A stretch of DNA of 64,000 nt from an uncultured Armatimonadota bacterium (GTDB lineage Bacteria; Armatimonadota; Fimbriimonadia; Fimbriimonadales; Fimbriimonadaceae), in the NCBI GenBank assembly GCA_903833215.1, contig CAILEM010000074.1, forward strand, positions 1-64,000. The letters run 5' to 3'. The notes under the pieces were generated by a model. That model saw only the letters and a program-made list of their open reading frames with translations, was not told the origin of the DNA and did not search any database. Positions 3,596 through 53,801 of this stretch are shown here, piece by piece; the first letter of the stretch is position 1, and every line of letters starts with the position of its first letter. The position numbers and the translations under genes were made by a program.

Positions 3596-3616
3596 GGCTA
3601 GGACGAATCAAAAGCC

Positions 3617-4843: not shown

Positions 4844-4926
4844 GAGTCATTGCACACAGATAGTTTTGTATCGCAGGATCGATCGACGAGGATGAATCGG
4901 AGATGTCGCATCCAATCGGAGGAAAT

Positions 4927-5349: not shown

Positions 5350-5983
5350 AAAGCGCGGCTACACACTCATCGAAATGATGGTTGTGACAGTCCTGCTCGT
5401 TCTGTTCTCGTCAATCCTCGTGCCGAACTACGTCAATTTTCTGCAAAGCCAGAAACGACGTGCGTTCTACGCAGGAGTGGTTGATGTGGCTGGGACGGCA
5501 AGAGAGTTGGCGATTCGCGAAAACTCAACTATGTACCTCCAAGCAGACACTTCGGCCAATGCCATCGTGATCAAGCAAGAGGTCAATTCAAGCACTTTTC
5601 AAACTGCGGATGGTGGAGCGGGACTCGGACTCTCGAAGAACATGGGGGGGAAAGGTTTCGACCAGAACCCGCAATCGAATATTTCAACTTCTTCGAACGA
5701 CCGTGCCAATGACCGGACGATTCAGACGTTGCCGATGACTTCAAGCATGAAATTCGGAAACTTTCAACTCGACGGTCAGGCATCGGATTCGAGTAGCTGG
5801 AAGATTCGGTTCTTCGCGGACGGCAGTTGCGATGCAGGTGCGGTTGAGCTCGATGATCGCGGATATGTCAAATCGTTAGTGATCACAGCACGAGGTAAGT
5901 CGAGCCTCGTGGATGGAAATATCCCAGACACTTCCCAAGGAAGTTGGATGGCAGGAAATTATGTCCAGCGGCAACAGCAATAG
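5333..5983 (+). CDS. gspH: Minor pseudopilin, GspH-like
   Basis: A 216-residue pseudopilin-like protein. The leader MAPITKKRG is followed by YTLIEMMVVTVLLVLFSS, with the cleavage site after Gly and Glu at +5. The rest is a soluble beta-rich domain with a Ser/Thr/Asn-rich central part. Assignment to GspH rests on position (after gspG) and length, since GspH proteins diverge strongly. Starting at ATG 5333 it overlaps the end of gspG by 17 bases, indicating translational coupling. GspH is thought to join the pseudopilus along its length or near the tip. Confidence 0.75.
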   Translation: MAPITKKRGYTLIEMMVVTVLLVLFSSILVPNYVNFLQSQKRRAFYAGVVDVAGTARELAIRENSTMYLQADTSANAIVIKQEVNSSTFQTADGGAGLGLSKNMGGKGFDQNPQSNISTSSNDRANDRTIQTLPMTSSMKFGNFQLDGQASDSSSWKIRFFADGSCDAGAVELDDRGYVKSLVITARGKSSLVDGNIPDTSQGSWMAGNYVQRQQQ

Positions 5984-6395
5984 GAGATTGTTTCTAAAGG
6001 GCTTCAGCTTGATTGAAGCGCTTGCGGCCGTCACCATCTTAGGTGTTGGCATTGCTGCCGTCGTGAGTGGATTGGGTGCGGTGACGAGAGCGGAGTCAAG
6101 AATGAGAAAAATCGAACTCATGACTCGCTTGGCACAGCACAAGTTCGACGAATTAGTTGCGACCAGTTCGTCTATGACGGCCGGAGCGGCTCAGAGCGGC
6201 GACTTCTCTGATCAGAACCTGCCGGATTACGCTTGGAACTGCGAAATCACGGACACAGGAATCACCAACTTGGAAGCAGTGACGATAAAGGTCACTCTAA
6301 CCAAAGATACTAGCACCAGCTCTCCGATGGCGAAAGTGTCAACACTCCTGTACGTCCCACCCGCATCGACGACTTCTACAACAGGGGGCGGATAA
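5961..6395 (+). CDS. gspI: Minor pseudopilin, GspI-like
   Basis: A 144-residue minor pseudopilin. A 13-residue leader ends in KG, followed by FSLIEALAAVTILGVGIAAVVSG with Glu +5, the family-typical methylation motif. The downstream soluble domain (about residues 45-130) ends in a Thr/Gly-rich tail. ATG 5961 lies inside the end of the preceding gene (23-base overlap) with AGGA upstream, and it gives a proper short leader, unlike the longer frame from 5913. In known systems GspI is the core of the GspI-J-K tip complex; the next two genes fit J and K. Confidence 0.78.
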   Translation: MSSGNSNRRLFLKGFSLIEALAAVTILGVGIAAVVSGLGAVTRAESRMRKIELMTRLAQHKFDELVATSSSMTAGAAQSGDFSDQNLPDYAWNCEITDTGITNLEAVTIKVTLTKDTSTSSPMAKVSTLLYVPPASTTSTTGGG

Positions 6396-7262
6396 GTGAA
6401 GCGCGTTCGTGGCATTACACTTTTGGAAGTCTTGGTGACAGCCGCGATTACCGTCATCGTTCTCCTTGCTGCCGTCCAAGCAATGGCGGCGGGAATTGGT
6501 TACAACGAGCGACTTCGATCTGGTCGCGATACTGAAGATAGTAGACGGCGGTTTGAAGAGCGGTTAACACTTCTTCTCACACGAGCCTACATCGATTCAG
6601 CTGACACCAAGGGCATTAATCCAAACAGCGCAAACGCAACTGGCTCTACAGAAACTGCCAACACACGGACATGTTTCTTTGTCGGCCAAACAGGAGCGGG
6701 TATGCCTCCAGGTCAGACGATTGCGCCAGGGCAGCTCCTTATTCCTGGTCAGGCAACTCAGGCTGCAGCTGCAGGTGCTCAGACCAACGGTTCAACGAGC
6801 GCAGGCAATGCCGATACGTTGATGTTCACCGTCATGGGCCGACCTCTCCCTGGTTCGGTTCTCGCGGAGGATCCCAGCGACGACTTCGAGACGACAAATC
6901 AGCACTACGGTCCGCAAGGCGGACTCGCTGAATATGCGATCAGCATGACGCCAGTAGGCGATGCTCAAGGTCAAAAAGGCGTCATCTTGCGAGAACAACT
7001 GCCAGCCGATGAGGACGCCACCCAAGGTGGATACGAATCTGTTATCGAACCTGATGTGACGAGTCTCACTTTTGAATTCTTCGATGGAACTGCGTGGCAG
7101 CCTTCGTGGAACACGTTCGCTCAAACGACGAGGCAGCTTCCAGCCGCAGTTAGAGTTACTTACTCTCTCACGGGTGAGAGCCAGAACCGAATTTTCATCG
7201 TCGGTCTTGCCTGCTCAACCGTGACACCCAATAACCCGGCGACAACTACGGGGGGCAACTAG
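6396..7262 (+). CDS. gspJ: Minor pseudopilin, GspJ-like
   Basis: A 288-residue pseudopilin starting with GTG immediately after the gspI stop codon. The N-terminus MKRVRG/ITLLEVLVTAAITVIVLLAA shows the prepilin cleavage site and Glu +5. The long soluble domain includes Gly/Ala/Gln-rich low-complexity (about residues 100-140, with repeated PGQ) and ends in a Thr/Gly-rich stretch. At 288 residues it is larger than E. coli-type GspJ (about 200), as often seen for bulky tip pseudopilins outside Proteobacteria. It overlaps the next gene by one base. Confidence 0.75.
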   Translation: MKRVRGITLLEVLVTAAITVIVLLAAVQAMAAGIGYNERLRSGRDTEDSRRRFEERLTLLLTRAYIDSADTKGINPNSANATGSTETANTRTCFFVGQTGAGMPPGQTIAPGQLLIPGQATQAAAAGAQTNGSTSAGNADTLMFTVMGRPLPGSVLAEDPSDDFETTNQHYGPQGGLAEYAISMTPVGDAQGQKGVILREQLPADEDATQGGYESVIEPDVTSLTFEFFDGTAWQPSWNTFAQTTRQLPAAVRVTYSLTGESQNRIFIVGLACSTVTPNNPATTTGGN

Positions 7263-8626
7263 TGAGAAGACAACGTGGAAGTGTTTTTGTCTATTCCCTT
7301 GCCGTTCTCGTGGCGCTGATTGGAGTCCTCGCTGCCGTAGCTTCAACCGAACGCGTTGATGTTAAGGCAGCGGCAAATCGCAAAGAAAAGCTCAAAGCAC
7401 GAATGGCTTGCATGGCGGCCATCCAGAGATTCATCGCCGTAGAAGCGAATGATCTCCTTGGCGGCGGAGCTACGACGACAGGCGGATCGAGTGCTTCGAC
7501 AAGTACGACTGCACAGCAAACCGGAGCAACGACGCAGCAAGATAGTTGGGCTCTCCTAGGCTCCAACGGCGATGAGAACGTCGTGGTAGATGATACGAGC
7601 TTTAGGATGCAGGTCCTCGATGCCTGCTCCTTTGTCAATCTTTCTCAGCTCATACCTACCGCCCAGATCGGGCCGGGAACAACAATCACATCCACGAATG
7701 CCCCATGGCTCGTGAATATGCCGTTGTCCCAGCAGCAAGTTGATGCCTTCGTCGATTTCACGACCTCTGGACCCAATGCCACGGCAGATGGTGGAAAGGA
7801 CGCTTACTACAACGGACTCACCAACCCGTACAAAGCGAAGGAAGCGCCGCTGGATACGCTTGATGAGTTGCTTCAGATTCGGTATTTCAACGCCGCTGCG
7901 ATTTATCAGCCGAATACGAATATCGTGTCCACGGTTACCTACACCGCTGGATCAAGTGGTCAACAGCCGACGATCTACGATCTAGTGACACCTTACTCTT
8001 ACAGTCCGAATATGCAGCCAGGCCCTCTCGGACAGCAGCAGGCGAGAACAAGGATCGCTCTACCGATCAATGCTCAAAATATCGCTCCGTATCGAACCTC
8101 TGGTCGCTTTACAGCTCCGGGAATTGCCGCTCTTCAAAGGTTAACTCCTGGAATGAGGCTGTCTCAGATTGTCAATGCAATGCCCTCGATTCAGGACAAG
8201 CGGGCGATTCTCGACTTCTACACGGTTTATACCGGGACCAAGGTGAGCGGCCTCATCAACCTGAATACAGCCTCACAAAATGTCATCGCGAGCATGCCCG
8301 GTATGACTCCAGACATCGCACAGGCCTTAGTACAACAACAACAGACCGGTTATACAAAGCTATCCGACGTACTCAACGTTGCGGGATACACCGGGAACGT
8401 CCTGACTCAAACCATCGACCATTTTTGTGTCCAATCTTCTACGTTCATCGTGAGAGTCATTGGCTCTTGCGGATCAGCCTCAGTCGCAATGGAAGCAACC
8501 GTAGACATCATTAGTAACAAGCCTAGGCTCATCCGCATCGCCGATGTGCCGTTTACCGACGCCATTGGTCGGTGGAATTGGAATTCGACCACGTCAACCG
8601 AAACAGTACTCAAGGAGGGTTCATGA
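7262..8626 (+). CDS. gspK: Minor pseudopilin, GspK-like
   Basis: A 454-residue protein with GTG start overlapping the gspJ stop. Its N-terminus (RRQRGSVFVYSLAVLVALIG) is pseudopilin-like but lacks the Glu at +5, as is characteristic of GspK, the largest, tip-located pseudopilin. The large periplasmic part includes a helix-hairpin-helix-like segment, INLNTASQNVIASMPGM, near residue 340, matching the GspK SAM-like domain (typically NLNTAxxxxLxxLPG). Order I-J-K is conserved. The stop overlaps the next start by four bases (ATGA). Confidence 0.8.
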   Translation: MRRQRGSVFVYSLAVLVALIGVLAAVASTERVDVKAAANRKEKLKARMACMAAIQRFIAVEANDLLGGGATTTGGSSASTSTTAQQTGATTQQDSWALLGSNGDENVVVDDTSFRMQVLDACSFVNLSQLIPTAQIGPGTTITSTNAPWLVNMPLSQQQVDAFVDFTTSGPNATADGGKDAYYNGLTNPYKAKEAPLDTLDELLQIRYFNAAAIYQPNTNIVSTVTYTAGSSGQQPTIYDLVTPYSYSPNMQPGPLGQQQARTRIALPINAQNIAPYRTSGRFTAPGIAALQRLTPGMRLSQIVNAMPSIQDKRAILDFYTVYTGTKVSGLINLNTASQNVIASMPGMTPDIAQALVQQQQTGYTKLSDVLNVAGYTGNVLTQTIDHFCVQSSTFIVRVIGSCGSASVAMEATVDIISNKPRLIRIADVPFTDAIGRWNWNSTTSTETVLKEGS

Positions 8627-9990
8627 GCAAGGGCAACCCAAAGACGGCAAACTTAGTCATTGAATGGTCGCCCAAGGGGGTAACGACCTTTGATGCAGTT
8701 ACCCGTGCGACCCAGCATTTCGACACTACGGTCGCTGCCGCAGCATCGACAGGCGGGCGAGAAGTTCTTGCCGCCGTGTCGCGTCGGTCAGTCTTCGTCC
8801 GTACAACCCGCGTTCCCGATGCAACAATTTCGGACGTTCGCTTGGTTTTGAGCATGAAACTTGGGGACCTCTTTCCCTTGGCTGCCAGCGACCTTGCTTA
8901 TGACTTCGTCCTCACCGATGACGTGAATGGTGAAGGTCGATTAGCAGTCGTCGTTGCGATGGCAGCTCAAGATTTACGCCGACTGCATGAGGAATTCCGC
9001 GCAGCAGGCTACAAGGTCACGCAGGTTATTCCGAGTGCTTTTGGGTCCGTCGCCTTAGCAGACATTCTGTCTCGAAAGTCTGCCGCCGTAGTCACCCGCG
9101 AAGCCGATGGCATCGGCATCGATATTATTGAAGGCGGACAGCTTCGGTACAGTCGACTCAGCACGAATACTGCGAATCCGACCGCGGAGGTTTGTCGCAC
9201 CTACACCGTTGCCGGTTTAGCGACGGGAGAAATTATCGCGTCGAGCGGGATGAAATTTGCCGACTCCGATGTTGCAACTCCTCAGAGCACACTCGATGCC
9301 CTCATCACGTCCCCACACGGCTTGCCCGCCATCAATTTGGAAGTCCCCGAGGCAGTCGCTTTGCGGGCCAAGAAGGCGCATGACCAACGACAGGCGTTCG
9401 CATTATTTACATTTGTGGCTGCGCTCGCACTGTCCGGATACGCCTATTACGATTACAGCTCGAAGATCGCGGCAGTTGAAGCGGTCAAATCAAAGCAGGA
9501 AACGCAGATCACTAAGTTGACCAAAGAGGCTAAGAAGCAGCAATCGGCGTTGGCCGCTCTGATCAGCCCACACGACCTAGGCAAGCTCGTTGGTGACAAG
9601 AAACTGGCAGCTACAAAGGTAGATGGAACCAGCGACGACGCTCAAACCGCGATTGATACTGGCCTGACGTATGGTCAGAAGTTCTCAGACGTAATCACCA
9701 CGGTAGTCAATAATGTGCCCCCTGGTGTTTGGATTAATGGCATCAGTCTTGAGCGTGGAAAACGCCTAGTGATGAGAGGAACAGCCAAGACGAACGAGCA
9801 GATTACGACGTTCGTTAGGAGCTTGTCTGCACTCGATCAAGATCCGAAGGCACAGCGCCTAAGGGATGTCCGGTTAGAGTTCACTAACAACGGCTCCATA
9901 GAACAAACACCCATAGTACAGTTTAGCGTATCAGCATTTCCCGTCGGAAATGTGCCGCTCAGTGATCCGACAAAGGTCAAGAAGAAATGA
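8623..9990 (+). CDS. PilM-PilN-like (GspL-like) assembly-platform protein
   Basis: A 455-residue protein combining two parts. Residues 1 to about 230 resemble the cytoplasmic actin-like PilM/GspL domain. A single membrane helix (about 267-285, FALFTFVAALALSGYAYY) is followed by a coiled-coil stretch and a periplasmic PilN-type ferredoxin-like domain with the PPGVWINGISLERGKRLVMRG signature split across strands. Such proteins recruit the GspE ATPase to the membrane platform. GspL normally has this layout, but the periplasmic half reads as PilN (fimbrial assembly family). ATG 8623 has AAGGAGGG upstream and overlaps gspK by four bases; the ORF start at 8572 is unlikely. Confidence 0.75.
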   Translation: MSKGNPKTANLVIEWSPKGVTTFDAVTRATQHFDTTVAAAASTGGREVLAAVSRRSVFVRTTRVPDATISDVRLVLSMKLGDLFPLAASDLAYDFVLTDDVNGEGRLAVVVAMAAQDLRRLHEEFRAAGYKVTQVIPSAFGSVALADILSRKSAAVVTREADGIGIDIIEGGQLRYSRLSTNTANPTAEVCRTYTVAGLATGEIIASSGMKFADSDVATPQSTLDALITSPHGLPAINLEVPEAVALRAKKAHDQRQAFALFTFVAALALSGYAYYDYSSKIAAVEAVKSKQETQITKLTKEAKKQQSALAALISPHDLGKLVGDKKLAATKVDGTSDDAQTAIDTGLTYGQKFSDVITTVVNNVPPGVWINGISLERGKRLVMRGTAKTNEQITTFVRSLSALDQDPKAQRLRDVRLEFTNNGSIEQTPIVQFSVSAFPVGNVPLSDPTKVKKK

Positions 9991-10571
9991 TCGATTTCAA
10001 GAATAAGGACGAGCTATCAACAAACGTGGTGATTTGTGTATCACTAGTGGTGTTGGTCGCGGCAGGAGCCTGTATGAAGTTCATGCCCCAGCCGGTAGCT
10101 CCTAGCCAGCGGCAGAATTCGAATGCTCGAAGAAAGATCACCAGAACCATTGAGTCGATCAAGTCAAAGATTACGGTCGTTACCAAGGAACTTACGGCGA
10201 AGACTTGGCCCGGTCAACCTGAAGAGATCGGACCCGTCGCGCTCAAGCAAGTCAACGGACTCCTTCAGAATCACCACCTCAAACTGGTCGGTTTTCACTC
10301 CCAAAAGCCGATTGAGCAGCCAAACATAACACTCGTTCCGTTCATCGTTTCTGTTGATGGCGGGTTCTTGAATGTGATGGCATTCGCCAAAGATCTAGAA
10401 CGATCTGGGACGAAATTCGCGGTAAACCTCTTCCAAGTTTCAAGCGCAGATCAAGGCAGCGATAAGGTGACGGCAAGCATAGGAATTACTGCTTACCAAC
10501 TACCAAAACCGGCCACCACGGATTCGCCTGCGAAGAGCAATGACTCCAAAGGAGTGAAGAAGAATGCCTAA
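9987..10571 (+). CDS. PilO-like (GspM-like) platform protein
   Basis: A 194-residue bitopic inner-membrane protein: short cytoplasmic N-terminus, one membrane helix (about residues 13-32), a Lys-rich coiled-coil segment (about 45-75) and a small periplasmic domain containing SVDGGFLNVMAFAKDLERSG, which matches the PilO pattern GxYxxLxxFlxxLe. It starts within the stop of the preceding gene (ATGA) and overlaps the following gene by eight bases. PilO pairs with PilN to bridge the inner membrane and the secretin. Recognition is by architecture and position more than by strong identity. Confidence 0.65.
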   Translation: MIDFKNKDELSTNVVICVSLVVLVAAGACMKFMPQPVAPSQRQNSNARRKITRTIESIKSKITVVTKELTAKTWPGQPEEIGPVALKQVNGLLQNHHLKLVGFHSQKPIEQPNITLVPFIVSVDGGFLNVMAFAKDLERSGTKFAVNLFQVSSADQGSDKVTASIGITAYQLPKPATTDSPAKSNDSKGVKKNA

Positions 10572-11259
10572 AATCTTTGGTCGAGAAGTCCCATCGATTA
10601 TGCTCGTGGCTGGCGGCCTTGTTGCCGGATACCTTGTTGTCACGGCATTATTCCCTGCCGAAGTCGCGGCACCAACAACGAAAAAGCCAAAAGCGATCGC
10701 CAAGAAAACCGTTGGAGAAACGGATTACTTGCTGACCGACTATACATACAAGATTGACCCATTGCCCGATTCTCTAAAGCCTAAAGACGCCTTTAAGCCC
10801 TTGGTGATGAAATCCACGAATTTGCCAAACGGGATCCTTACGATCGACAACTACACCTACAGTGGTATGGCTTCGATCGATGGAGTCGCCAATGGTTTGC
10901 TGGAAAATGCAGCTACCGGTCAAGGTGACTTCGTAAAGAAAGGCCAACGATGGCACGACAGTTGGCTCGTGGTGAGTATCGACGCAGACAAAATCGCAAT
11001 GAAGAATGATGTCGGCGACATCACGACTCTCCTTGCCGGTGCTGCTTCGCTCAAGTCCACACCTGGCACGCCCGGAACATTGCCGAGCCCTGGTGGATCG
11101 AACCCCGTGATGGTTGGCCCAATCGGAGCCCAAGACCTTTCTCTCGTACCGGATAGCACTGCTATGGCCCAACAAGGAAATGGCGGTCGACGAGGCAGAG
11201 GCGGACGTGGAGGCCGCGGAGGCCGTGGCGGCGGCGGTGCCCCGATGGATGGCGGTTAG
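10564..11259 (+). CDS. PilP/GspC-like periplasmic linker protein with Gly-Arg-rich tail
   Basis: A 231-residue protein with an N-terminal membrane helix (about 9-30). It then has a proline/lysine linker, the segment IDPLPDSLKPKDAFKPLV that precedes the HR/PilP domain in many platform proteins, and a small beta domain containing WHDSWLVVSIDADKIAMKN. This fits the PilP/GspC part that touches the secretin N0 domain. The C-terminus (about 203-231) is a striking Gly-Arg repeat (GGRRGRGGRGGRGG) not usual in PilP. It lies 48 bases before the secretin gene, as expected for pilP-pilQ or gspC-gspD. Confidence 0.65.
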   Translation: MPKIFGREVPSIMLVAGGLVAGYLVVTALFPAEVAAPTTKKPKAIAKKTVGETDYLLTDYTYKIDPLPDSLKPKDAFKPLVMKSTNLPNGILTIDNYTYSGMASIDGVANGLLENAATGQGDFVKKGQRWHDSWLVVSIDADKIAMKNDVGDITTLLAGAASLKSTPGTPGTLPSPGGSNPVMVGPIGAQDLSLVPDSTAMAQQGNGGRRGRGGRGGRGGRGGGGAPMDGG

Positions 11260-11307
11260 TCGGTCCATCAAGTTCAGTTTTGACGTAAGTAAATATAGGA
11301 ATAAATC

Positions 11308-13794
11308 ATGGCGGAATTTAAGAAATCTTGGATATGCATGTCGTTGCTCCTGCCAGCGGCAGCCTTCGGCCAGTTTTTCAATGGCACAGGCTTGGACGGT
11401 CCAAACTCATCGAAACCGTGGGTGGATTTCAAGCTAAATCCGAAAACGAAAATCAAGCTCGACTTCAGAGATGCCTCTGTTGACAACATCTTGGCGATGT
11501 ACGAGAAGGCCTCTGGAATCACGATCGTGAAAGATCCGGCACTTGTTGGAAAGATGACCGTCACCAGTGCCAAGCCAGTGAGCCTTAACGATGCTTACTC
11601 CATCCTGAAAGCCAACCTTGATCTGAAAGGCTATGACCTTTCGAAAGATGGAAGTTTCCTCGTCATCAAGAATCGCAACGGCGGCGGTGGTGGCGGAATG
11701 CGAGGCAACGGGATGCCCCCGGGAATAGACATGGGCTCGTTATTCGGCGGCGGGGACAACCAAATAGGAGTGAAAGTCTACAAGTGTGACTTCGCCAATG
11801 CGGCTCAGTTAGCCAAAGTTGTGAACGACGTCTACTCCGGAACGGGAGGAGGCGGTGCCAACCCATTTGGTGGCCAAATGGGAGGCCGCGGTGGTGCAAA
11901 TCCATTCGGCGGCAATGGCTTCGGTAATCGCTTTGGTGGCGGTGGTGGCGGCATGGGCGGCCAACAGAACAACCGCTTTGGCAACATCATGAGCATGTTT
12001 GGCCAGAGTACAACCAGTACGGTTAAGGCTTCATCCGACGACTATACGAACTCGGTTATCGTTAGCGCGAACGACAAAGATCAACAGCAGGTTGGAAATC
12101 TGGTCAAGCAACTTGACAAGAACTCCGACGAGCCAATGAAACCACACGTGTTTCATCTGAAGTACGCATCCTGCAACGACGTCCAGCCAGTCGTTCTCAA
12201 TGTCCTGCAGACGAACGCTCCCAAGGGTAAAGCGGGTATGGGCCCTCAGTCGATTCAGAGTACGTTCCAGAACGCAATCCGAATCGGTACGGGTCAAGCC
12301 GCATCTGGTCCAGTCGTCTCGGATGTTCGAACGAACTCAATCGTCGTGACAACGACTCCTGCAAACCTGGAAATTGCGAGCAAGCTTGTTGAGCAGCTCG
12401 ATAAGCCAGTTGATTTCCAGAGCACAACGTTTGTCTATCCGCTAACCAACGCCCGACCTGACATGGTTGCAAATCTCTTCCTCCAGGCATTTGGTCAGCG
12501 ACAAGGAACGAGTTCGAGTTCTTCTGCTCGTAATCCATTCTCAGGTGCGAACACAAGTAGTAACGGAACTTCGACTACGGGTGCCGGCGGCACAACGGGA
12601 GCCCGCGCTCCTGGTGCAAATGTCGGCGCAGGTGAAGATCTGATGGCTCAGAGCTCGCTCCCCCTCCAGATGCAAGATCCTAATGCGGCAAGCGGAGATC
12701 TTCTGACCTCTGTTACCGTGCAAGGCTTCGGCGGATTTGGTGGTGGTGGAGGCGGCGGTGGTGGCCGTGGACAGGGTGGCGGCGGTGGAGCCGCAGCGCA
12801 AAACCAGTCCGTAACCCAGACTCGCGACAGTAACGGGCAAATCACAAACCTTCGGGACCTAACCGGTCAAATCACAGTCATTCCCGACATGAACACGGGT
12901 TCTTTGATCGTGGTTACAACACCAGACAATAGAGAACTCGTGAAGTCGATTCTTGCCCAGCTTGACCAAGTTCCTCAACAGGTCATGATCCAGACAATTA
13001 TCGTCGAGGCTTCCCTTTCTAAGGCGAATCGGTTTGGTGTGGAGTGGCAGTTTGCATCGAAGAGTGCGCAGGGCACCGCCGCTGGCGGCACGGGCTTTAG
13101 CTTGAAGAACGCTAACCCTTCTCTGCAAGGCCTCAGCTATACACTCGCTGGAAAGGACCTAACCGCCTTCTTCAACATGCTCCAGACAGATACGAAGTTC
13201 CAGATCCTGTCAACACCTAGAATCTTCACTTCGAACAACACAGTGGCTTCGATTAACATCAGCCAAAGCATTCCGTACATCGTTAGCACGATTCAAAACA
13301 CGAATGGAACGACGAGCTACAACTACGCGTTCCAGGACGTTGGCATCGTGTTGACCGTCACGCCGCGAATCACCTCCAACGGGTACGTGAATATGGATGT
13401 GACGCAGACGGCAAATGACCTCCAGGGCTACACCGACTTCAATGCACCGATTGTTAACCAACGAATGGCAAACACAACGGTGACGGTTAAGGATGGCGAG
13501 ACTGTGGTCTTGGGCGGAATGATCCAGAACCAAGTGACAGCGACGGTAAACAAAGTTCCGTTGCTCGGAGACATTCCAATCCTAGGTTCGCTCTTTACTT
13601 CGAAGAATCGAACTGACACCAAGACAGAACTCCTTGTGTTCTTGACCCCGACGGTAGTCCGAGACGTAGCCGAAGCCAAGAAGCTCTACGAAAAGACCCA
13701 GAAAGAAATGACACCAGGGACCAAGGAAAGTTTGAACATTATCCAACCGGCAAAAAGTAGCGCCGCTACTCAGAAACAGACTGGAGGAAAGTAG
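11308..13794 (+). CDS. gspD: Type II secretion/type IV pilus secretin GspD
   Basis: The outer-membrane secretin channel, 828 residues. A signal peptide (about 1-20, ending AAAFG) is followed by an STN/N0-like domain (IKLDFRDASVDNILAMYEK). Several N1-N3 repeats follow, interrupted by long Gly-rich insertions (about 125-230 and 470-500), and then the C-terminal secretin domain with VEASLSKANRFGVEW, VPLLGDIPILGSLF and TELLVFLTPTVV. Secretins of this class usually have 650-750 residues; the extra length is the Gly/Asn/Met-rich insertions, which also contain long Gly runs. AGGA lies eight bases before the ATG. It is followed after four bases by an LTxxQ gene. Confidence 0.93.
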   Translation: MAEFKKSWICMSLLLPAAAFGQFFNGTGLDGPNSSKPWVDFKLNPKTKIKLDFRDASVDNILAMYEKASGITIVKDPALVGKMTVTSAKPVSLNDAYSILKANLDLKGYDLSKDGSFLVIKNRNGGGGGGMRGNGMPPGIDMGSLFGGGDNQIGVKVYKCDFANAAQLAKVVNDVYSGTGGGGANPFGGQMGGRGGANPFGGNGFGNRFGGGGGGMGGQQNNRFGNIMSMFGQSTTSTVKASSDDYTNSVIVSANDKDQQQVGNLVKQLDKNSDEPMKPHVFHLKYASCNDVQPVVLNVLQTNAPKGKAGMGPQSIQSTFQNAIRIGTGQAASGPVVSDVRTNSIVVTTTPANLEIASKLVEQLDKPVDFQSTTFVYPLTNARPDMVANLFLQAFGQRQGTSSSSSARNPFSGANTSSNGTSTTGAGGTTGARAPGANVGAGEDLMAQSSLPLQMQDPNAASGDLLTSVTVQGFGGFGGGGGGGGGRGQGGGGGAAAQNQSVTQTRDSNGQITNLRDLTGQITVIPDMNTGSLIVVTTPDNRELVKSILAQLDQVPQQVMIQTIIVEASLSKANRFGVEWQFASKSAQGTAAGGTGFSLKNANPSLQGLSYTLAGKDLTAFFNMLQTDTKFQILSTPRIFTSNNTVASINISQSIPYIVSTIQNTNGTTSYNYAFQDVGIVLTVTPRITSNGYVNMDVTQTANDLQGYTDFNAPIVNQRMANTTVTVKDGETVVLGGMIQNQVTATVNKVPLLGDIPILGSLFTSKNRTDTKTELLVFLTPTVVRDVAEAKKLYEKTQKEMTPGTKESLNIIQPAKSSAATQKQTGGK

Positions 13795-21046: not shown

Positions 21047-22453
21047 CTAGGGTACCGGGTCCTTCTTGGGCAACTCTTGGATCACGATCAGAATCCGCCT
21101 GGTCTTGCCCCCTGGCTTGCCTTTACCGGCATTGCCTGGGTGCGACATTGCATCCTTGAAGGTGGACTTCGAAGATCCAGTTGCTGCCACTACGTCAGCA
21201 GATGGCTTGGCTGACTCATTGGATTTTGCCAACTCAGGAACCCCTTGCTTTCCCCCTTGGGCTTTAGGTGACTTGGCGGCAGTTTTTTCGCTATTCGCAG
21301 TGGGGCTATTCCCATAAACGGGATCTTTAGCACGAGGCGCTTGGCTGGCAGCCTTAGAACTAGGAGGCGTTAGGTTCACACCTAGGGTCCTTTCCCTGTA
21401 AAACTCAAATCCAGCCCCAGGCCCACCTCTGCCGGCACCGCCACTTCCAGCTTTAACTGAGGCATCGTTTGTCATTTCCGCCCCTGACTTTCCAGATAAG
21501 CGGACTGTTGATGTCAATCCTCTGAGACTTTCGATCACAGCATCCGCTTGATCTTCGTCCACCTCAATTTCGATTGTTGAACTACGATCGCCAGACTGAA
21601 TCGTTCGGTTCCTCGATGCGGATTTCATTTCAGGTGTCCGGTATTTTTCAATAGCATCGGTCACCTTTGCAACACCGACATCACGGGAGGAAAACGCCAG
21701 GGTCACGACAGAAACTTTAGGGCTCACGCGACGAGCCATCATCGGTTCAAATTTCTGGGTATTTGGCGTCGCTGCACTCGTCACAGAAGGTGCCCTTTTT
21801 GTTGATGCATCGCGTGGGGCCTTATCGTTCACTTGCTCCCGTGCTTGGTTCGTCGTAGTCGGGAATCGAGGCGTCACAACAGCGGGCACCTTACTCAAAT
21901 TTTTCTTTGTCGACTCAATATTTTTAGCCGATAGGTTTTGATCAGCACCCAGAACTGGCTGATCCGTTTTGGCGGCAAACTTTGGAAGTGGAGCGCTCTT
22001 TGCAGCATCAGCACTTGGTGCTTGCATCTGGTCAGCCATCGGGCTGGCTGGTGCACCACCAACGGATTTCGCCTCGGCAGCCATACTTGCTACCGTAGCA
22101 TTCTCACTCTGGAATGCTAATGAATTCTTTGCTGCCACCTTTGCACTCTCAAAAACGGGCAGGATCGCAAAGAAGACGACTGCGGTAGCCAAAGCAAATG
22201 CCCCGCCCAACATCCAGCCGCGTCCGATTGCGAATGCAGGCTTCCTCTTACGTTCAAGAGCGGCCAACGTTTGTTCGAGCCCATGCGGGGTGATATTTGC
22301 TGCACAGGATTTGACCGATGCCCCAAGCAACCGAAGTTGTTCGAACTCCTTGCGTAAGTTCGGATCTCGGTCCATGGCAAGCCGAACTTCTTCAGATCGC
22401 TCCAAATCTAGTTCGCCATCCAGATACGCTTTTAGGTCGTCATGCAAACTCAT
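21047..22453 (-). CDS. Membrane anti-sigma factor with large extracytoplasmic domain
   Basis: A 468-residue protein. The first 70 residues (HDDLKAYLDGELDLERSEEV) match the cytoplasmic RsiW-like anti-sigma helical domain, without a zinc CxxC motif. One membrane helix lies at about 83-103 (LGGAFALATAVVFFAILPVF). The rest is periplasmic: a low-complexity Lys/Ala/Ser/Pro region, then a folded part at about 230-315 with VTLAFSSRDVGVAKVTDAIE, which resembles DUF4349-type domains, then more disorder. It overlaps the sigma gene by four bases (ATGA), the standard pairing. Sigma release probably follows regulated proteolysis; the signal is unknown. Confidence 0.75.
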   Translation of the reverse strand: MSLHDDLKAYLDGELDLERSEEVRLAMDRDPNLRKEFEQLRLLGASVKSCAANITPHGLEQTLAALERKRKPAFAIGRGWMLGGAFALATAVVFFAILPVFESAKVAAKNSLAFQSENATVASMAAEAKSVGGAPASPMADQMQAPSADAAKSAPLPKFAAKTDQPVLGADQNLSAKNIESTKKNLSKVPAVVTPRFPTTTNQAREQVNDKAPRDASTKRAPSVTSAATPNTQKFEPMMARRVSPKVSVVTLAFSSRDVGVAKVTDAIEKYRTPEMKSASRNRTIQSGDRSSTIEIEVDEDQADAVIESLRGLTSTVRLSGKSGAEMTNDASVKAGSGGAGRGGPGAGFEFYRERTLGVNLTPPSSKAASQAPRAKDPVYGNSPTANSEKTAAKSPKAQGGKQGVPELAKSNESAKPSADVVAATGSSKSTFKDAMSHPGNAGKGKPGGKTRRILIVIQELPKKDPVP

Positions 22454-22959
22454 CTCATGACCTCCTCGGGAGCAAACAATTGGCGGCGCAGTTGAAGGAA
22501 TGCATGATGCAATCGTGATTTCACCGTGCCCACCGGAACAGATAGGACCAGTGCTGCTTCTTCGTATGTAAGACCTTCAATTTCATGCAAAATAACGATT
22601 TCCCGATGCTCCGGCGAGAGCTTGCATAGAGCCTGGTTCAGCGCCTGACGATCCACGATCGCAGTCTCACTGTTTCCATCAGACGGTCGTTCTGGATCGA
22701 TCTCAAGAAGCACCGGTTCAAAGCGTTGCTTCCGTGAAATACGGCGGCATTCGTTATGGGCAATTCCAAAAAGCCAGGTAGTCAGATTCGATTCTCCGCG
22801 AAACTTATGGAAGACTTTCTGTGCCGTCAAGAATGTCTCTTGCGAAACATCGGCGGCTCGATCGACTCCCACTCGGCGAGCGCAGAAACGAAACACCGCA
22901 TCGTAATGTTGACGTGCGATGCTCGCCATTTCCCCTTCGGTAGACCGGTTGGTCATCAT
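22450..22959 (-). CDS. ECF-type RNA polymerase sigma factor
   Basis: A 169-residue sigma-70 family protein of the extracytoplasmic function group. Region 2 spans about 12-80 (RQHYDAVFRFCARRVG, AADVSQETFLTAQ, TTWLFGIAHNECRR). Region 4 spans about 108-158 (LSPEHREIVILHEIEGLTYE, then VPVGTVKSRLHHAF for the DNA-reading helix). The gene overlaps its anti-sigma partner by four bases. It is about 130 bases from the divergent small membrane protein at 23088, so both could share a control region. No clear autoregulated promoter was identified. Confidence 0.92.
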   Translation of the reverse strand: MMTNRSTEGEMASIARQHYDAVFRFCARRVGVDRAADVSQETFLTAQKVFHKFRGESNLTTWLFGIAHNECRRISRKQRFEPVLLEIDPERPSDGNSETAIVDRQALNQALCKLSPEHREIVILHEIEGLTYEEAALVLSVPVGTVKSRLHHAFLQLRRQLFAPEEVMR

Positions 22960-47169: not shown

Positions 47170-48738
47170 TTATGGTTTTCCGTCAGGGCGTGGGCTGATC
47201 ACCTTCGTCACATTGGAGGGCCGTTTATAGTTGCGTTGAGTGAGCAGATCCGTCAGATTGTCCAGTCTGAGTCGAAGGCCCAGTTGATAGTCCGTTGGAT
47301 TTTTCCGATACAGCAGATAGGGCTCAAAACACCCTACGACTTGAGATACCGAATACTCTCGATCGAACCACTTATAGTATCGATCATATTTCTGTAAATA
47401 ACTAAACTTTGTTGGGCCTAGATTCACATCTCCCCTGACGGTGTAACCGGCCTTGCTGTACAGGGGGTCTATGGGAAATTGTGGTGTTCCGGAATCTGCC
47501 GAATAAAACGTTCCCGCTGAAATCCTAACTTGTGGGACGGGCATGTACGCCAGCCCAATAAAGCCTCGCACCCAACCGTAATCGGTTTCCCCAAGAAAAA
47601 TTTGCGTATCAACCCGGGTAATGGTTCGCAGATTCCTTGTAATGCGGATCGGCGGTGGGCCAATCTCTTCGATCAATTCGAGTCTTGTGACCAGAGGAGT
47701 TGTCAACTCCCGAATCGTCTGAATACGTGTTTGGGAGATATATCCGAACCCAAACAGATCTCCGCCTCGCTCATATACACCCTCTACCGCTTTGGAAAAT
47801 GGTGCGCTGGAGCCCCGGTCGGTAAGGGTTTGATTCCAAGAACTCCCGAGGGAAACCGTACTTCTCGGACTACGAAAAGCTCGATCCTCCCCTTCTGGGC
47901 TCGTCACTGCGATGTTATCAAGAAATCCAAATCCAAATCTCTCCCCAAAATCTGAGGCCGGCGTGATGTAGGTCGTAGGGACGCCGTCTGCCAAGAAAGA
48001 CTTGGAAATACTCGCGCCATATCCCGGTCTTGAATCAGGAAAAGCGCCGACTGAAAACGCAACATTCGTTGCATGGTTCAGAAGGAATCCTCCTCCCCAA
48101 CTGGCGCCAAGCCCGTTTTGCCGACTGTAATTCAGCCCTGGGAAAGTCAAACCCTCACTGCGTTTATCCAAGTTAAAGCTTCGATCAGGGAGGGTAACTA
48201 TCTTCCTACCAAGAATGTAGAGCTTCGGCTTTTTCATTCGTCCGCTCTGACCTGGCTTGACCGTCATAAAGGAGCTATGGACCTCATACCAAGGCGGATT
48301 TGCCAGCGACGTGGTGACCTCCACGTTCTTCAGGGTCCACAACTTGGGAGTCATCTCTAGTTCGTCGGCCTTAAGGTGTGACGAACCGATGTGAATCTCT
48401 GCGTTTTTGGCATAGCCCTTTTGGCCATCCTTCGCCCACCACATCTCGATGCGATCTGCTCGTACGGTGGCAATAGGGTCATCTAGCCGGACGTGGCCCG
48501 ATGCACTACCCATTTGTGTTTTGACATCGATGTCAACGTGATCAGCTTGAATGCGGGTCAGATCGACATCGACGACGACGCCATTTTCGAACGACCACTT
48601 TTCATTCGGAATGTCATACGCTCCAGAGACGTAAGTGATCTTGACGTCTCCGGGAAGCATGAGCGTCTTTGTCTTCCCTGCTTGCGTCTGGTGAACCGCA
48701 AGAGCGGCCATAGGCAAGAGAAGCCATGGAGCAGGCAT
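47170..48738 (-). CDS. LptD/OstA-like outer-membrane protein
   Basis: A 522-residue exported protein. A signal peptide (MPAPWLLLPMAALAVHQTQA) precedes a beta-jellyroll OstA/LptA-like domain (about 25-175), with repeated patterns such as FENGVVVDVDLTRIQADHV and VRADRIEMWWAKDGQKGYAKN. The rest (about 180-520) is alternating strands with aromatic ends, such as SRPGYGASISKSFL, consistent with a beta barrel. LptD inserts lipopolysaccharide into the outer leaflet; at 522 residues this is shorter than Proteobacterial LptD (about 780), so it may be a diverged relative. The start ATG 48738 begins the signal peptide. Confidence 0.65.
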   Translation of the reverse strand: MPAPWLLLPMAALAVHQTQAGKTKTLMLPGDVKITYVSGAYDIPNEKWSFENGVVVDVDLTRIQADHVDIDVKTQMGSASGHVRLDDPIATVRADRIEMWWAKDGQKGYAKNAEIHIGSSHLKADELEMTPKLWTLKNVEVTTSLANPPWYEVHSSFMTVKPGQSGRMKKPKLYILGRKIVTLPDRSFNLDKRSEGLTFPGLNYSRQNGLGASWGGGFLLNHATNVAFSVGAFPDSRPGYGASISKSFLADGVPTTYITPASDFGERFGFGFLDNIAVTSPEGEDRAFRSPRSTVSLGSSWNQTLTDRGSSAPFSKAVEGVYERGGDLFGFGYISQTRIQTIRELTTPLVTRLELIEEIGPPPIRITRNLRTITRVDTQIFLGETDYGWVRGFIGLAYMPVPQVRISAGTFYSADSGTPQFPIDPLYSKAGYTVRGDVNLGPTKFSYLQKYDRYYKWFDREYSVSQVVGCFEPYLLYRKNPTDYQLGLRLRLDNLTDLLTQRNYKRPSNVTKVISPRPDGKP

Positions 48739-48890
48739 GCGACATTCTACCGTCTGGTGCCCAATCGGGTTCCCAACATGTCCTCGCAGCAAGGTGTGCA
48801 GTTTGTATCGGTGATTGATCGAACAGACGAACTTTGCGTGCAGAGGAGTACGTCATGTAAGATGTACAGGGGTAGTCACAAACTGCTCTG

Positions 48891-49445
48891 ATGGATTTTA
48901 AAATGACCCATGTAATTGCCGCTGAAACCGCCGCGCAGGAGCGGCAGTGGGTAGGAAGGTGTCGCGTTGGCGATGAATCTGCCCTTGCCTGCCTGATTGC
49001 TCGTCACCGGAATCGTTTGGTTCGAACCGCCACTAACCTTTTGCGGGATCGACACGAGGCGGAAGATGTTGCTCAAGAGTCGTTCCTCAAGGCATTCCGC
49101 GAGATCAATAAGCTTAGAGATGACCGCGCTTTTTCTGGGTACCTCTATCGAATTTGCGTCCGCCTGTGCATGGATCGCCTACGCCTCAAACGCGCCGAAC
49201 TCGTAGAATTCGATTCGGCACAACCCCACTGTGGCGGAAACGTCGAAAACCGTGTTGTCATCGAGAAACTGTTGAGCCAACTTCCCGCAGAATTGCGAAC
49301 CACCCTGGTTTTGCGTGAGATGGAACAGTTGAGCTATGAGGAAGTTGCTGAGGTTATGCAGGTCCCGATCGGCACAGTTCGATCAAGGCTTCACACAGCA
49401 CGTGAAAGATTTAGAAAGCTTTGGATTGAGGCGGTGCGTGATTGA
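48891..49445 (+). CDS. ECF-type RNA polymerase sigma factor
   Basis: A 184-residue sigma-70 family protein. Region 2 spans about 30-98 (LIARHRNRLVRTATNLLRDR, AEDVAQESFLKAF, YLYRICVRLCMDRLR). Region 4 spans about 120-175, with LPAELRTTLVLREMEQLSYE and VPIGTVRSRLHTARERF as the recognition helix. A second in-frame ATG at 48903 is possible. It is the first gene of a chain in which every junction is a four-base overlap, leading through its anti-sigma factor and a membrane protein to a GlnD-like enzyme. A possible promoter is TTGCGT (48834) with TAAGAT (48858), 18 bases apart. Confidence 0.92.
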   Translation: MDFKMTHVIAAETAAQERQWVGRCRVGDESALACLIARHRNRLVRTATNLLRDRHEAEDVAQESFLKAFREINKLRDDRAFSGYLYRICVRLCMDRLRLKRAELVEFDSAQPHCGGNVENRVVIEKLLSQLPAELRTTLVLREMEQLSYEEVAEVMQVPIGTVRSRLHTARERFRKLWIEAVRD

Positions 49446-49870
49446 AAACCAGAGTATTCGGTTGTAAGAAGTTTGGCAAATTGTTGAGCGAACAAGCTGA
49501 CAGATGCCTTTCTGCTTCCGAAGAACGGTTTCTGGAGCGGCACCGTGTCGCTTGCGTCGAGTGTCAGGCGATTGAACATTCGACCAGTTGTGCTCTGAAT
49601 ATGCTGCGAATGGCAGCACTTGAGCCCGAAATTGAACCCATGTTCGAAGACCGAGTGATTCGCCGGTTGAAGGTTCAGCAGGTAAAGGAAAGTCTCAACT
49701 ATTGGTCTCCAGCGCTTGTTGGGGCCGGTATCGCATGCATCGTGATCTTTGTCACGCTCCAAATGGTTGCCTCACCTGTGCAAATGAAACGTGCTCATAT
49801 GCCGGATGGTGAAGCGAAGCGAGAAAGTGCTCCCAAGCTGGAGCTAGATTTCGTTCCGGTTATTCGATGA
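49442..49870 (+). CDS. Zinc-type anti-sigma factor
   Basis: A 142-residue protein beginning with TTG at 49442, overlapping the sigma stop (TTGA). The cytoplasmic part carries ERHRVACVEC, giving the H-x3-C-x2-C core of zinc anti-sigma (ZAS) domains. One membrane helix lies at about 90-110 (WSPALVGAGIACIVIFVTLQ). A short periplasmic tail of about 30 residues follows. It should hold the preceding ECF sigma factor at the membrane. ZAS proteins of this size often respond to redox or envelope signals through the cysteines. Confidence 0.78.
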   Translation: MKTRVFGCKKFGKLLSEQADRCLSASEERFLERHRVACVECQAIEHSTSCALNMLRMAALEPEIEPMFEDRVIRRLKVQQVKESLNYWSPALVGAGIACIVIFVTLQMVASPVQMKRAHMPDGEAKRESAPKLELDFVPVIR

Positions 49871-51420
49871 GTCCTTGGATTCGAGCGCTGGTCGGAGCGA
49901 CTGTCAGCGCCCTTGTAACGCTCATTGTTCATCCGGTGTCTCGGCCCTATATGGTGGGCGTGACGTCCCGAGCGTCCCCGACCGTACTCTCGAAGTGTAT
50001 TGACTCAAATGCCCTGACACTTCCCTCACCGAACACGCTAACGCAAGCGAGCCTTTGGATGCAATTGGCGGCTGCCAAAATTGCCTCGCACGAAGCACTT
50101 AGCGACAAGGAACGTGTGACAGTGCTCGCAGTTGCACAACGAGCCTCAGAGCGACAAACGACCAATGCTTTTTGGCTTCAGATGCAAGCGATTATTTACG
50201 CAGACCAAGGGCTACTTGGTCAGGCAACAACTTGCTGGTTGCGTGCGTCGCAGTGCCAACAGTGGGATGATGGGCAAACCGCACGCTTAAAAGTAGCGAG
50301 ATCACGTATTGCCGAGTTAACTAGTGCCCAGCAGTCATGGCAACTTGCCTATTTGTATTACAGCCGATCTGATGCGGTTTCCGATTGCCTATTAAGAGTT
50401 ACGCGGGACTTTCTTTCGCGCGCGGATTTCGACACTCCTAGCGGCCTGTCCTTACGCTACGCAACACTTCTAAACGGAGATTTGCTTCAAAAACACGCCC
50501 GATCTACGAAAGGAATTACGACCTCGACGGAGATGCTCGAACTCACGACCTATCCGCCAGGCAACGTAGGCGACACATTCCTAAAGCCCAAGATGCTTTG
50601 GAGTGGCCGTTTGAAGGTTATCCGAAACCTCACAAAGGTGCTTCACCAGCCCGATTCAAGCGCGATTGCCACCAAGATTTACGCACTGAGTGATGCGATA
50701 AGTGCATTAACGGTCCATGTCTCGAATGGGCAACAAACCGAGTGGCTTGCTTTCGCGACCGTACTCTGCTCCTCGATTTCTGGAGCTCTCGTTATCATCA
50801 CATTGTTTGGCGCGTTTATCTGGGGGCTCGGGCAACTGATCTCATGGAGGCTCGCCAAATCGCGCCAGGTCAAGCCGCAGATCGCGATCATCATTGCGAT
50901 TGCCCTGGGTGGCCTCGTACTTCTCCTCACGAGCTATTGGCCAGCAGCATTCGCCACGATGTTATGCGCTGGGTTCCTAACCGTCGCACCTGATCGAAGT
51001 CGAACGCTACGGCCCACCGACTTAGGGCCATTCTTTTCGTTCATGGCCATGGTGGTTGGCCTAATATGCTCACTCATGTTCGCGAGCTACCTTGTTGGAA
51101 ACACTCCCGCAGCGAATGCAATCCTTCCCAATCTAGGCGTTCCTTCAGCCTTCATCGGCAAGCCGTTGTGGGCGGGACTGTCCGCGGTGGCGTTTTGCTT
51201 AATCCTCCTCATCGCGCCAATATGGGCGGTTGTGCACCGGATCGGAACGCCCTATGTCCTGTCACTGATCCTGATGCGATTTGGCTCCTTTGTTGCGGTC
51301 ATGGGCTTGGTTTTGGCAATAACTCTTGCTCCATTATCTGTTTATGCGGATCGACGCTTGGAAACGACGTTTGGAGAACTTGTTGACAACGAACCAGTGC
51401 ACTATTTAATCCACCAATGA
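49867..51420 (+). CDS. Polytopic membrane protein with TPR-like N-terminal region, unknown function
   Basis: A 517-residue protein not matched to any family. It has an N-terminal helix (about 5-22) followed by a soluble, mostly helical region to about residue 290 with alanine-rich repeats (NAFWLQMQAIIYADQGLLGQ, ATTCWLRASQ) reminiscent of TPR units. About six membrane helices then span 295-500 (ISGALVIITLFGAFIWGLGQ; IAIIIAIALGGLVLLL; AVAFCLILLIAPIW), and the tail is short. It overlaps the anti-sigma gene (ATGA) and glnD (ATGA). Position suggests a sensor or partner of the anti-sigma factor, perhaps linked to nitrogen status; this is inference only. Confidence 0.6.
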   Translation: MSPWIRALVGATVSALVTLIVHPVSRPYMVGVTSRASPTVLSKCIDSNALTLPSPNTLTQASLWMQLAAAKIASHEALSDKERVTVLAVAQRASERQTTNAFWLQMQAIIYADQGLLGQATTCWLRASQCQQWDDGQTARLKVARSRIAELTSAQQSWQLAYLYYSRSDAVSDCLLRVTRDFLSRADFDTPSGLSLRYATLLNGDLLQKHARSTKGITTSTEMLELTTYPPGNVGDTFLKPKMLWSGRLKVIRNLTKVLHQPDSSAIATKIYALSDAISALTVHVSNGQQTEWLAFATVLCSSISGALVIITLFGAFIWGLGQLISWRLAKSRQVKPQIAIIIAIALGGLVLLLTSYWPAAFATMLCAGFLTVAPDRSRTLRPTDLGPFFSFMAMVVGLICSLMFASYLVGNTPAANAILPNLGVPSAFIGKPLWAGLSAVAFCLILLIAPIWAVVHRIGTPYVLSLILMRFGSFVAVMGLVLAITLAPLSVYADRRLETTFGELVDNEPVHYLIHQ

Positions 51421-53801
51421 CACAGGCAGCCAAAGACCGAGTTCTAGCGATCGCGGATGAGCGTCAAATCCATCTTCAAACTCTGCTGGCAAAACCAAGC
51501 GGCGTCAGTTGGTGTATCCGGCATTCTGAACTAGCCGATGAAGTTGTTCGGATCCTTTACGACGACATACAGTCGACATACGCTGACCTACCACCGCTGT
51601 CGATCATTGCCACCGGCGGCTATGGCCGGAGCGAACTTTCCTCGTATTCCGACATTGATATCACGGTTGTTCCGTCCGACGAAGCTTCCCCTCTCCTGGA
51701 CCAAGCGATTCGCACCCTTTTCCAGGATCTGCACTGGGCGTTTTGCACCGCCCTCAAGATGGATGTTGGCTACGCGTACAGGCTCCTAGCCGATGCTCCC
51801 GGCCTTGATGTGAAGTCGAGAACCGGATTAATGGATATGCGATTGCTGGCTGGGTCTCATGAACTGAGTCGCCAGCTTGAGGAAGCGCTTACAGAGAGCT
51901 TTGAAGTCGGTGAATTCGTTCTCGCAAAGATCAAAGAGCGCGAACAGATGTTTCACCGGTATCACGACACTCCATTGGTGGTTGAACCCAACCTGAAGGA
52001 AGGAGCAGGCGGGATTCGTTGTTTCCATTGCGCCAATTGGCTCCGAGAAGCAATCGGGGAGCGCGCAAGTCGCCCAACGAAAGAGTACGACCAAATCCTG
52101 CGCATCCGTAATCTCCTGCAGTTGAATGCTGGAAAGCATCAAGACATGTTGTCCCGCCAACGTCAAGCCCAGATTTCTGATCAGCTAGGCGTCGACATGT
52201 ACGACATGATGGCTACGGTGGTTGAGTGCGGCGCCGCTCTTCACGACTACTACCGGAGTGCCCGCGAAAAGATTACTCACTCGACTTTCGCCCTATCCCG
52301 AGGGGTTCTTGCCGTTCAAGGGGAAGCCCGACTAGTCGGCCAGGCAGACGCCGGCGAGGCCGCGGTTGGAATCGCCATCGGAACCCAACTGGACTTGCGC
52401 GTTGCCAATATCGCCGTTGCGCCTACCAAGGGCGTGCGAGGGCCTGCCGCAATGTACGCCATTTCAACCGGTGAGGCTACGTTGAGGAATATGGATCGAT
52501 GCGGCTTGCTTGGACAGCTGCTTCCCCAACTTGTGGCTTGCCGGACGTTGGTTCCGACCGACGCGGTTCATGAGTACACCGTGTTTGAGCACACGATGCG
52601 TGTCGTTCGATATCTTGAGCAGCTACCACAGGGCACCTTCTTGGGGGACCTTAAGGATGGTCTGAACGATCAAGAGCCGTTGTATTTGGCTGCGCTGTTG
52701 CATGACGTGGGCAAAATTGATCCCGATAAGGATCACAGCATCTATGGTGCCGAGATTGCGAACGAAGTTTGCGAAGCTTGGAATCTCGCTATAGGCAACC
52801 GCGAGACAGTCGAGTGGCTAGTTCGAGAGCACCTTACCATGGCGCGTTTCATACGCGTCCGCGACATCATGAACCCGCAAACCGTTGAAGAGTTCGCAGG
52901 CATTGTCGGCGACGTCAACCGGCTTGCCCTTCTAACAATCTTCACTTTTGCCGATGTAAGCGCAGTTGCAGATGGGGCTTGGACGCCGGCCCAGGACACT
53001 TTCCTGAGAGAGCTGTTTGCCCGAACAGATGCCCTTTTGCGCGGGGATGCCCACTTCTCGCCAGATCCTGCCGTGTATCGTCAGCGCTTGCTGCGCCAAT
53101 TAAAGTCGCAGAAAGAAGACGAAGGGGCCCTTCAGGAGTTTGTCCAAAGCCTTCCTGCCTACTACCTCACCAGTACGCATCCAGAAGTTATTCGCCTGCA
53201 CATGGGCTTCGTGAAAAAGGCTTTGGATTCGGTTCCAACGGTTGAGATTTTTCACCGTTCCGACATTAGTGCTACCGAGATCACGATTTGCACGCTAGAC
53301 GCACCTGGACTGTTGAGCAAACTTCTAGGAGTCTTTTACGCCTTTGATCTGAGTGTGGGAGGCATCCGAGCCTGCACAACGATGACGGCTCCCGCCGTCG
53401 CCCTCGACGTCTTTACCGTAAGTTTCTCGGCTCGCCCCGTTCCGACGGCAACGATGAATCAGGTTACCGCTGCCATCTTAGAGGTCATTCACGGCACAAC
53501 CGACGTTGAAGAGTTACTGGTGCGGAAAGGCAAAGATCCATTCCGGAAACAGCGGATCTTCAAACATACGTTTGTTGAAGGTACACCAGGGATTCTGGAA
53601 ATCCGATCCCCGCGAGGGAGAGGGATGCCATTTCGCTTCTCAAGGTTGATCGCCGATCAAGGCTGGAATGTTGTCGCAGCGCGCGTGGGCCAGTGGGCCG
53701 GAAACGCAACCGCCGCATTCTATTTGCTTGGGAACGGTGGCGAAGGTCTACACAAGCAGGAAGTCGATTTCTTGTTGGACGCGATCTCCTCCGGACCTTA
53801 A
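51417..53801 (+). CDS. glnD: GlnD-like [PII] uridylyltransferase/UMP-removing enzyme
   Basis: A 794-residue protein with the GlnD domain order. The nucleotidyltransferase motif GGYGRSELSSYSDIDI (67-82) has catalytic D79 and D81. Next come the GlnD PII-UTase region (NLKEGAGGIRCFHCANWLRE), an HD domain (LAALLHDVGKIDPDKDHS) for UMP removal, and two ACT domains (about 620-690 and 720-794) that bind glutamine. GlnD uridylylates PII proteins under low glutamine. E. coli GlnD has 890 residues, so this is compact. No glnB, glnK or amtB is nearby, so the PII partner lies elsewhere. It ends the sigma-led chain, an unusual location. Confidence 0.88.
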   Translation: MTQAAKDRVLAIADERQIHLQTLLAKPSGVSWCIRHSELADEVVRILYDDIQSTYADLPPLSIIATGGYGRSELSSYSDIDITVVPSDEASPLLDQAIRTLFQDLHWAFCTALKMDVGYAYRLLADAPGLDVKSRTGLMDMRLLAGSHELSRQLEEALTESFEVGEFVLAKIKEREQMFHRYHDTPLVVEPNLKEGAGGIRCFHCANWLREAIGERASRPTKEYDQILRIRNLLQLNAGKHQDMLSRQRQAQISDQLGVDMYDMMATVVECGAALHDYYRSAREKITHSTFALSRGVLAVQGEARLVGQADAGEAAVGIAIGTQLDLRVANIAVAPTKGVRGPAAMYAISTGEATLRNMDRCGLLGQLLPQLVACRTLVPTDAVHEYTVFEHTMRVVRYLEQLPQGTFLGDLKDGLNDQEPLYLAALLHDVGKIDPDKDHSIYGAEIANEVCEAWNLAIGNRETVEWLVREHLTMARFIRVRDIMNPQTVEEFAGIVGDVNRLALLTIFTFADVSAVADGAWTPAQDTFLRELFARTDALLRGDAHFSPDPAVYRQRLLRQLKSQKEDEGALQEFVQSLPAYYLTSTHPEVIRLHMGFVKKALDSVPTVEIFHRSDISATEITICTLDAPGLLSKLLGVFYAFDLSVGGIRACTTMTAPAVALDVFTVSFSARPVPTATMNQVTAAILEVIHGTTDVEELLVRKGKDPFRKQRIFKHTFVEGTPGILEIRSPRGRGMPFRFSRLIADQGWNVVAARVGQWAGNATAAFYLLGNGGEGLHKQEVDFLLDAISSGP

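Follow-up and report, generated by a model that had tools for sequence, protein, structure and literature searches.

The window analysed here, a stretch of 64,000 nucleotides, is contig C74 of the 6.2-Mb genome of a Fimbriimonas-type armatimonadote of the order Fimbriimonadales. A chain of four co-directional genes, referred to as sig, anti, mid and glnD, has been identified in it (Table 1). As a sequence-only reading of the same DNA had reported, the adjacent reading frames overlap by four bases at each of the three junctions (TTGA, ATGA and ATGA). A gene for an LptD/LptA-like protein diverges from sig and adjoins it in most loci of the family.

Table 1. Coordinates of the features discussed (positions refer to the window unless another contig is named)
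Feature	Position	Strand	Basis
LptD/LptA-like outer-membrane protein, divergent from sig	47170..48792	-	weak LptD and LptA NCBIfam matches
Predicted autoregulatory ECF promoter: GAACTT (48829-48834), 16-nt spacer, CGTC (48851-48854)	48829..48854	+	conserved position and spacing
TAAGAT, possible housekeeping sigma-70-type -10 just 3' of the ECF -10	48858..48863	+	inference; absent from the consensus scan list
sig: ECF sigma factor, 184 aa, RpoE/AlgU/SigW-like	48891..49445	+	Pfam Sigma70_r2, r4_2
anti: zinc anti-sigma factor, 142 aa, TTG start	49442..49870	+	C8, H34, C38, C41; zf-HC2
mid: unnamed membrane protein, 517 aa	49867..51420	+	no Pfam or NCBIfam match; AlphaFold2 model
glnD: PII uridylyltransferase/uridylyl-removing enzyme, 794 aa	51417..53801	+	catalytic motifs, GlnD_UR_UTase, HD
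Secreted TM-anchored 246-aa protein of no known family, then PilT (L222, L253)	contig C147 of the same genome, 18063-18874		genus-conserved ECF-type site

Overlaps of this length are found in 7 of the 37 co-directional pairs of the window, three of the seven being the junctions from sig to glnD, and in about 20% of crude pairs in the relatives. As they are commonplace in these genomes, the weight of those in the sig-glnD chain comes from their conservation. The chain was rebuilt in 28 relatives. Throughout most of the genus and of the family each of the three junctions is again predominantly a four-base overlap, the one between sig and anti reading GTGA, TTGA or ATGA. It is the retention of the overlaps, not their occurrence, that exceeds chance.

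The window also encodes a second ECF sigma factor joined by a four-base overlap to a 468-residue partner that has no Pfam family (21047-22959, minus strand), a type II secretion/type IV pilus cluster (1958-13794) whose last member is a secretin-like protein of 828 residues, and three small YetF/DUF421-like membrane genes lying side by side (129-1612).

Domain organisation of the four proteins

The sig product comprises regions 2 and 4.2 only (Sigma70_r2, 59 bits; r4_2, 53.8 bits; both above the Pfam cut-offs) in a short protein, as is characteristic of ECF sigma factors. The solved sequence closest to it is sigma-H (6in7), followed by SigW and RpoE.

The N-terminal region of anti has a complete set of zinc ligands (C-x25-H-x3-C-x2-C), in which the HxxxCxxC motif and the upstream cysteine that define the ZAS class are both present. 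The zf-HC2 family matches this region at 18.1 bits, just below the cut-off of 22.2, and the best relative gives an E-value of 1.4e-7. The same N-terminal ligand spacing is a feature of RsrA-type zinc anti-sigma factors, from which anti differs in bearing one trans-membrane helix and a short outer tail. HxxxCxxC is retained in the anti-sigma factors of 23 of 29 relatives; since the zinc ligands are missing in the other six, sensing of redox state or zinc is not essential. Domain and profile searches of sig and anti identified nothing like a PII-binding or ligand domain.

The mid protein has no match among the Pfam and NCBIfam profiles and its sequence has no relative among solved structures. 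An AlphaFold2 model (pLDDT 91.3, pTM 0.85) predicts an N-terminal trans-membrane helix, a TPR-like helical domain (approximately residues 43-284) and about six further trans-membrane helices, seven in all. Residues 43-182 match the TPR fold, about 70 residues superposing at about 2 Å on numerous chains of TPR proteins (highest Z 7.9), and a conserved NEP motif lies near the C-terminus. By the positive-inside rule the loop charges place the N-terminus and the loops TM2/3, TM4/5 and TM6/7 inside, so that the TPR domain and the C-terminus are expected to be outside. This topology makes the role of sensor that had been proposed for the protein plausible; mid probably senses the state of the envelope or modulates the anti-sigma factor. 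No clear known fold could be assigned to the membrane half: when residues 284-517 were modelled alone the best nine matches all belonged to the DMT superfamily, with Z-scores of 6.3-10.5 and rmsd of 4-8 Å that are weak and below the level of trust, and Foldseek gave nothing significant for this half.

In GlnD the nucleotidyltransferase motif (GG-x-GR-x-E...SDxD) is present as GGYGRSELSSYSDID, its core columns being invariant, and the HD motif HDVGK is intact. The GlnD_UR_UTase (49.1 bits) and HD (49.8 bits) families match above their cut-offs; for the two C-terminal ACT domains expected of a GlnD there is one weak ACT match (15.5 bits against a cut-off of 27). TIGR01693 aligns through residue 785 with 339 bits, below its cut-off of 519. 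The nucleotidyltransferase, GlnD and HD domains and the catalytic motifs are shared with the GlnD of Proteobacteria and of the amtB-glnK-glnD operon of Actinobacteria, as is the conservation of Tyr51 in PII; the present protein is shorter. Actinobacterial GlnD transfers adenylyl groups (PMC4285133).

PII of the window's genome carries the T-loop Tyr51 (RGSTY). The PII proteins of GlnD-bearing genomes have RGSTY or RGSQY, the exception being one genome (G008) that is 89% complete and in which a single PII was found. Six genomes of the same genus that lack both GlnD and mid keep one PII, and Tyr51 has gone in all six. Some of the PII proteins devoid of Tyr51 (L119, L120, L305-L308) have shortened T-loops. 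Among genomes at least 90% complete, 50 have both GlnD and PII, none has GlnD alone, seven have PII alone and 13 have neither (p = 1.6e-9), and mid and PII occur independently (p = 1.0); both p-values ignore shared ancestry. Whether a genome has GlnD thus goes with PII and the tyrosine at position 51, and not with the sigma module. This distribution marks GlnD as an ordinary PII enzyme, which would transfer either uridylyl or adenylyl groups.

Predicted promoter of the operon and a possible second target

A putative ECF promoter, GAACTT-N16-CGTC, lies 46-75 bases 5' of sig in essentially all loci of the family, and also in most relatives devoid of GlnD. In the window, as in most family loci, none of 300 shuffled sequences gave a site as good; of 447 regions lying 5' of genes in the studied loci, those of sig counted, no more than 11 score equally high. 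The -35 element is identical to that of the AlgU consensus, GAACTT-N16/17-TCtgA (PMC10651043). Of 29 regions 5' of sig, 18 contain a GTAnn[A/G]T element; the TAnnAT element that soon follows the ECF -10 in many loci could provide basal expression. The sequence-only reading had named a separate promoter for glnD as grounds against coupling, and a scan for promoters and terminators inside the sig-glnD chain, including the region before glnD, identified nothing above chance. With the ECF promoter in place before sig across the whole family, glnD probably shares its transcript with a sigma factor that regulates itself.

That reading had also proposed a search for promoters with the same motif. Genome-wide the motif is not enriched (19 sites against 17 for the reversed control) and is too short for regulon prediction; such a prediction was therefore abandoned and only sites conserved among orthologues were used. 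The only recurrent second site of this type is 5' of a secreted, trans-membrane-anchored protein followed by PilT (Table 1). It is present in 8 of 11 same-genus genomes that have the module and in none of seven that lack it (p = 0.004, confounded by shared ancestry). No sigma motif was found 5' of any of this genome's three PII genes; the high-scoring sites that a search around its PII/amtB genes gave lie away from the PII genes.

Distribution of the gene order and loss of its parts

The conservation of the four-gene order, which the earlier reading had put forward as a check on its proposal, has been followed in 85 genomes of the family, of which 67 encode mid, 62 glnD and 54 both. In 52 of the 54, mid and glnD are neighbours on the same strand and in the remaining two they are on separate contigs, so the order holds wherever both sit on one contig. 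The order sig-anti-mid-glnD is likewise found in a second family (f5) and, with GlnD as query, in named Armatimonadota records including Fimbriimonadaceae MAGs. The operon also occurs in a cultured organism of the same genus as the window, the type strain Gsoil 348 of Fimbriimonas ginsengisoli, whose genome comprises 5,231,762 bases (PMC4072686); it lies there on the minus strand of the chromosome, at about 4,122,350-4,127,300. Another family (f2), other classes of Armatimonadota and other phyla have glnD without this arrangement. Neighbouring genes vary among the relatives (RqcH, TrkA, LptD-like adjacency) while mid and glnD stay joined wherever both are on one contig. Genomes that have glnD have a single copy, and that 54 of them have kept it at this place hints at something beyond accident. 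We found no paper that describes a linkage of an ECF sigma factor with glnD; the contexts of GlnD described in PMC4285133 differ from the present one in that none is an ECF sigma operon.

Across Fimbriimonadales loci the identity of sig ranges from 94 to 58% and that of mid from 50 to 17%, sig being far more conserved than mid or anti. In a genome without mid (G005) the identity of sig is 47%. The mid family is essentially restricted to Fimbriimonadales. Same-genus genomes that lack mid (L110-L113) encode a diverged sig (44-53%) and a short anti-sigma factor; an M32 carboxypeptidase comes next, joined in some of these genomes by GNAT enzymes. Two apparent exceptions were rejected: the long open frames that precede glnD in certain relatives simply lack stop codons and are not mid-GlnD fusions, and one seemingly GlnD-less genome (G149) has a partial glnD after mid at a contig break.

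Either half of the chain has been lost in some lineages. Twelve genomes at least 90% complete keep sig-anti-mid without GlnD; eleven of them are also devoid of PII, and the only PII-like protein of the twelfth (G135) is without the T-loop tyrosine. As the p-values given above are blind to ancestry, a tree of sig and mid was built, on which the presence of GlnD requires approximately seven changes, at least five of them forced by supported branches. Conversely, one sister genus has glnD-trkA-trkA but lacks the sigma genes, and its glnD is not preceded by a sigma motif. Neither half, therefore, needs the other.

The trkA genes encode two TrkA-type potassium regulators, one of 150 residues with TrkA_N and another of 220 residues with TrkA_N and TrkA_C. 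In f5 and in many of the family's genera they lie 3' of glnD; in GlnD-less genomes they usually come directly after mid. Loci with the pair in one or the other position include L103-L109, L283, L285-L287, L045, L051-L053 and L055-L057. The genus of the window lacks the pair both in the operon and in the genomes tested. The occurrence of the pair after glnD or after mid, together with the loss of either half, suggests that the older order was likely sig-anti-mid-glnD-trkA-trkA.

A probable envelope-stress sigma system and its possible link to nitrogen control

We consider these genes to form, with a probability of about 0.6, an envelope-stress module of the RpoE/AlgU type; the GlnD encoded in its operon would be an ordinary one and an output that the module can do without. 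The assignment to envelope stress is made because of the sigma factor, the zinc anti-sigma factor with a single trans-membrane helix, the outer TPR protein, the GAACTT -35 element and the divergent LptD-like gene. By analogy with its family, the membrane-bound anti-sigma factor would hold the sigma factor, and mid would probably act as sensor or modulator. Once freed, the sigma factor would transcribe its own operon from the conserved site and probably, in the Fimbriimonas clade, the secreted-protein/pilT operon. As the last gene here, glnD would be co-transcribed and probably translationally coupled. The coupling would run one way, from sigma factor to GlnD level, and be dispensable to both sides; nitrogen control would be carried along by the operon as an output and would not be what the sigma factor responds to.

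RpoE and AlgU operons combine an autoregulated ECF sigma factor with a single-TM anti-sigma factor and an extracytoplasmic protein. The likeness to RpoE-RseA-RseB-RseC of E. coli and AlgU-MucA-MucB of Pseudomonas lies in these predicted features. The present operon differs from them in the zinc class of its anti-sigma factor, in a third protein with seven trans-membrane helices, a TPR domain and no family match, and in a CGTC -10 element; it also runs on into glnD and, in relatives, into trkA-trkA.

The sequence-only reading had proposed a signalling module that links membrane state with nitrogen control. The proposal is supported in part, by the conserved order, the ECF promoter and a plausible sensor; the link as the purpose of the module is not supported. 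As the switch survives in lineages that have lost its nitrogen partner, nitrogen can at most be a target of the switch and is not its core function. A dedicated two-way module, in which feedback from GlnD or from the glutamine/PII state reaches the sigma factor and nitrogen and membrane signals are thereby combined, agrees with the order and overlaps conserved in two families, the shared sigma-type promoter and the single glnD per genome. We regard it as very unlikely, however, because the sigma trio outlives GlnD and PII in repeated lineages, GlnD follows PII, glnD-trkA persists without the sigma genes, no motif precedes the PII genes of this genome, and the searches of sig and anti gave nothing like a domain that binds PII or a ligand. 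The linkage could also be historical, an unbroken old operon in which glnD is expressed mostly from a housekeeping promoter and its co-regulation has no physiological effect; the commonplace four-base overlaps, the TAnnAT element just past the ECF -10 and the clean loss of either half would fit this, but mid and glnD stay joined while the flanks change and the ECF promoter remains conserved, and we hold it to be unlikely.

PII binds TrkA in Azospirillum, and the charge of glutamate is balanced mainly by potassium (PMC7646526); controlling glnD and trkA together might therefore make sense as a means of regulating ions and turgor. A sigma factor answering envelope tension or osmotic change would then raise GlnD and the TrkA pair and reset glutamate and potassium. 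Such an operon accords with the six-gene order of f5 and of many of the family's genera, and with the trkA pair that usually remains after glnD loss. Against it are the absence of the pair from the genus of the window, the lack of a C-terminal domain in the small TrkA and the lack of any potassium channel gene seen in the operon, which make it a highly improbable account of the locus. For Fimbriimonadales with the six-gene operon, a sigma factor of envelope tension that governs potassium regulation as well as the modification of PII, the sensing of turgor thereby directly resetting the glutamate and potassium pools, is a speculative and improbable extension.

The envelope-stress module with GlnD as output remains the preferred reading. 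The mid protein represents an unnamed family of 7-TM TPR proteins and a candidate sensor in diderm Armatimonadota. The occurrence of the operon in the cultured Fimbriimonas ginsengisoli Gsoil 348 makes it accessible to experiment. If activation of the sigma factor alters the level of GlnD, an envelope-stress sigma factor would directly set the PII system, joined in relatives by the potassium regulators.
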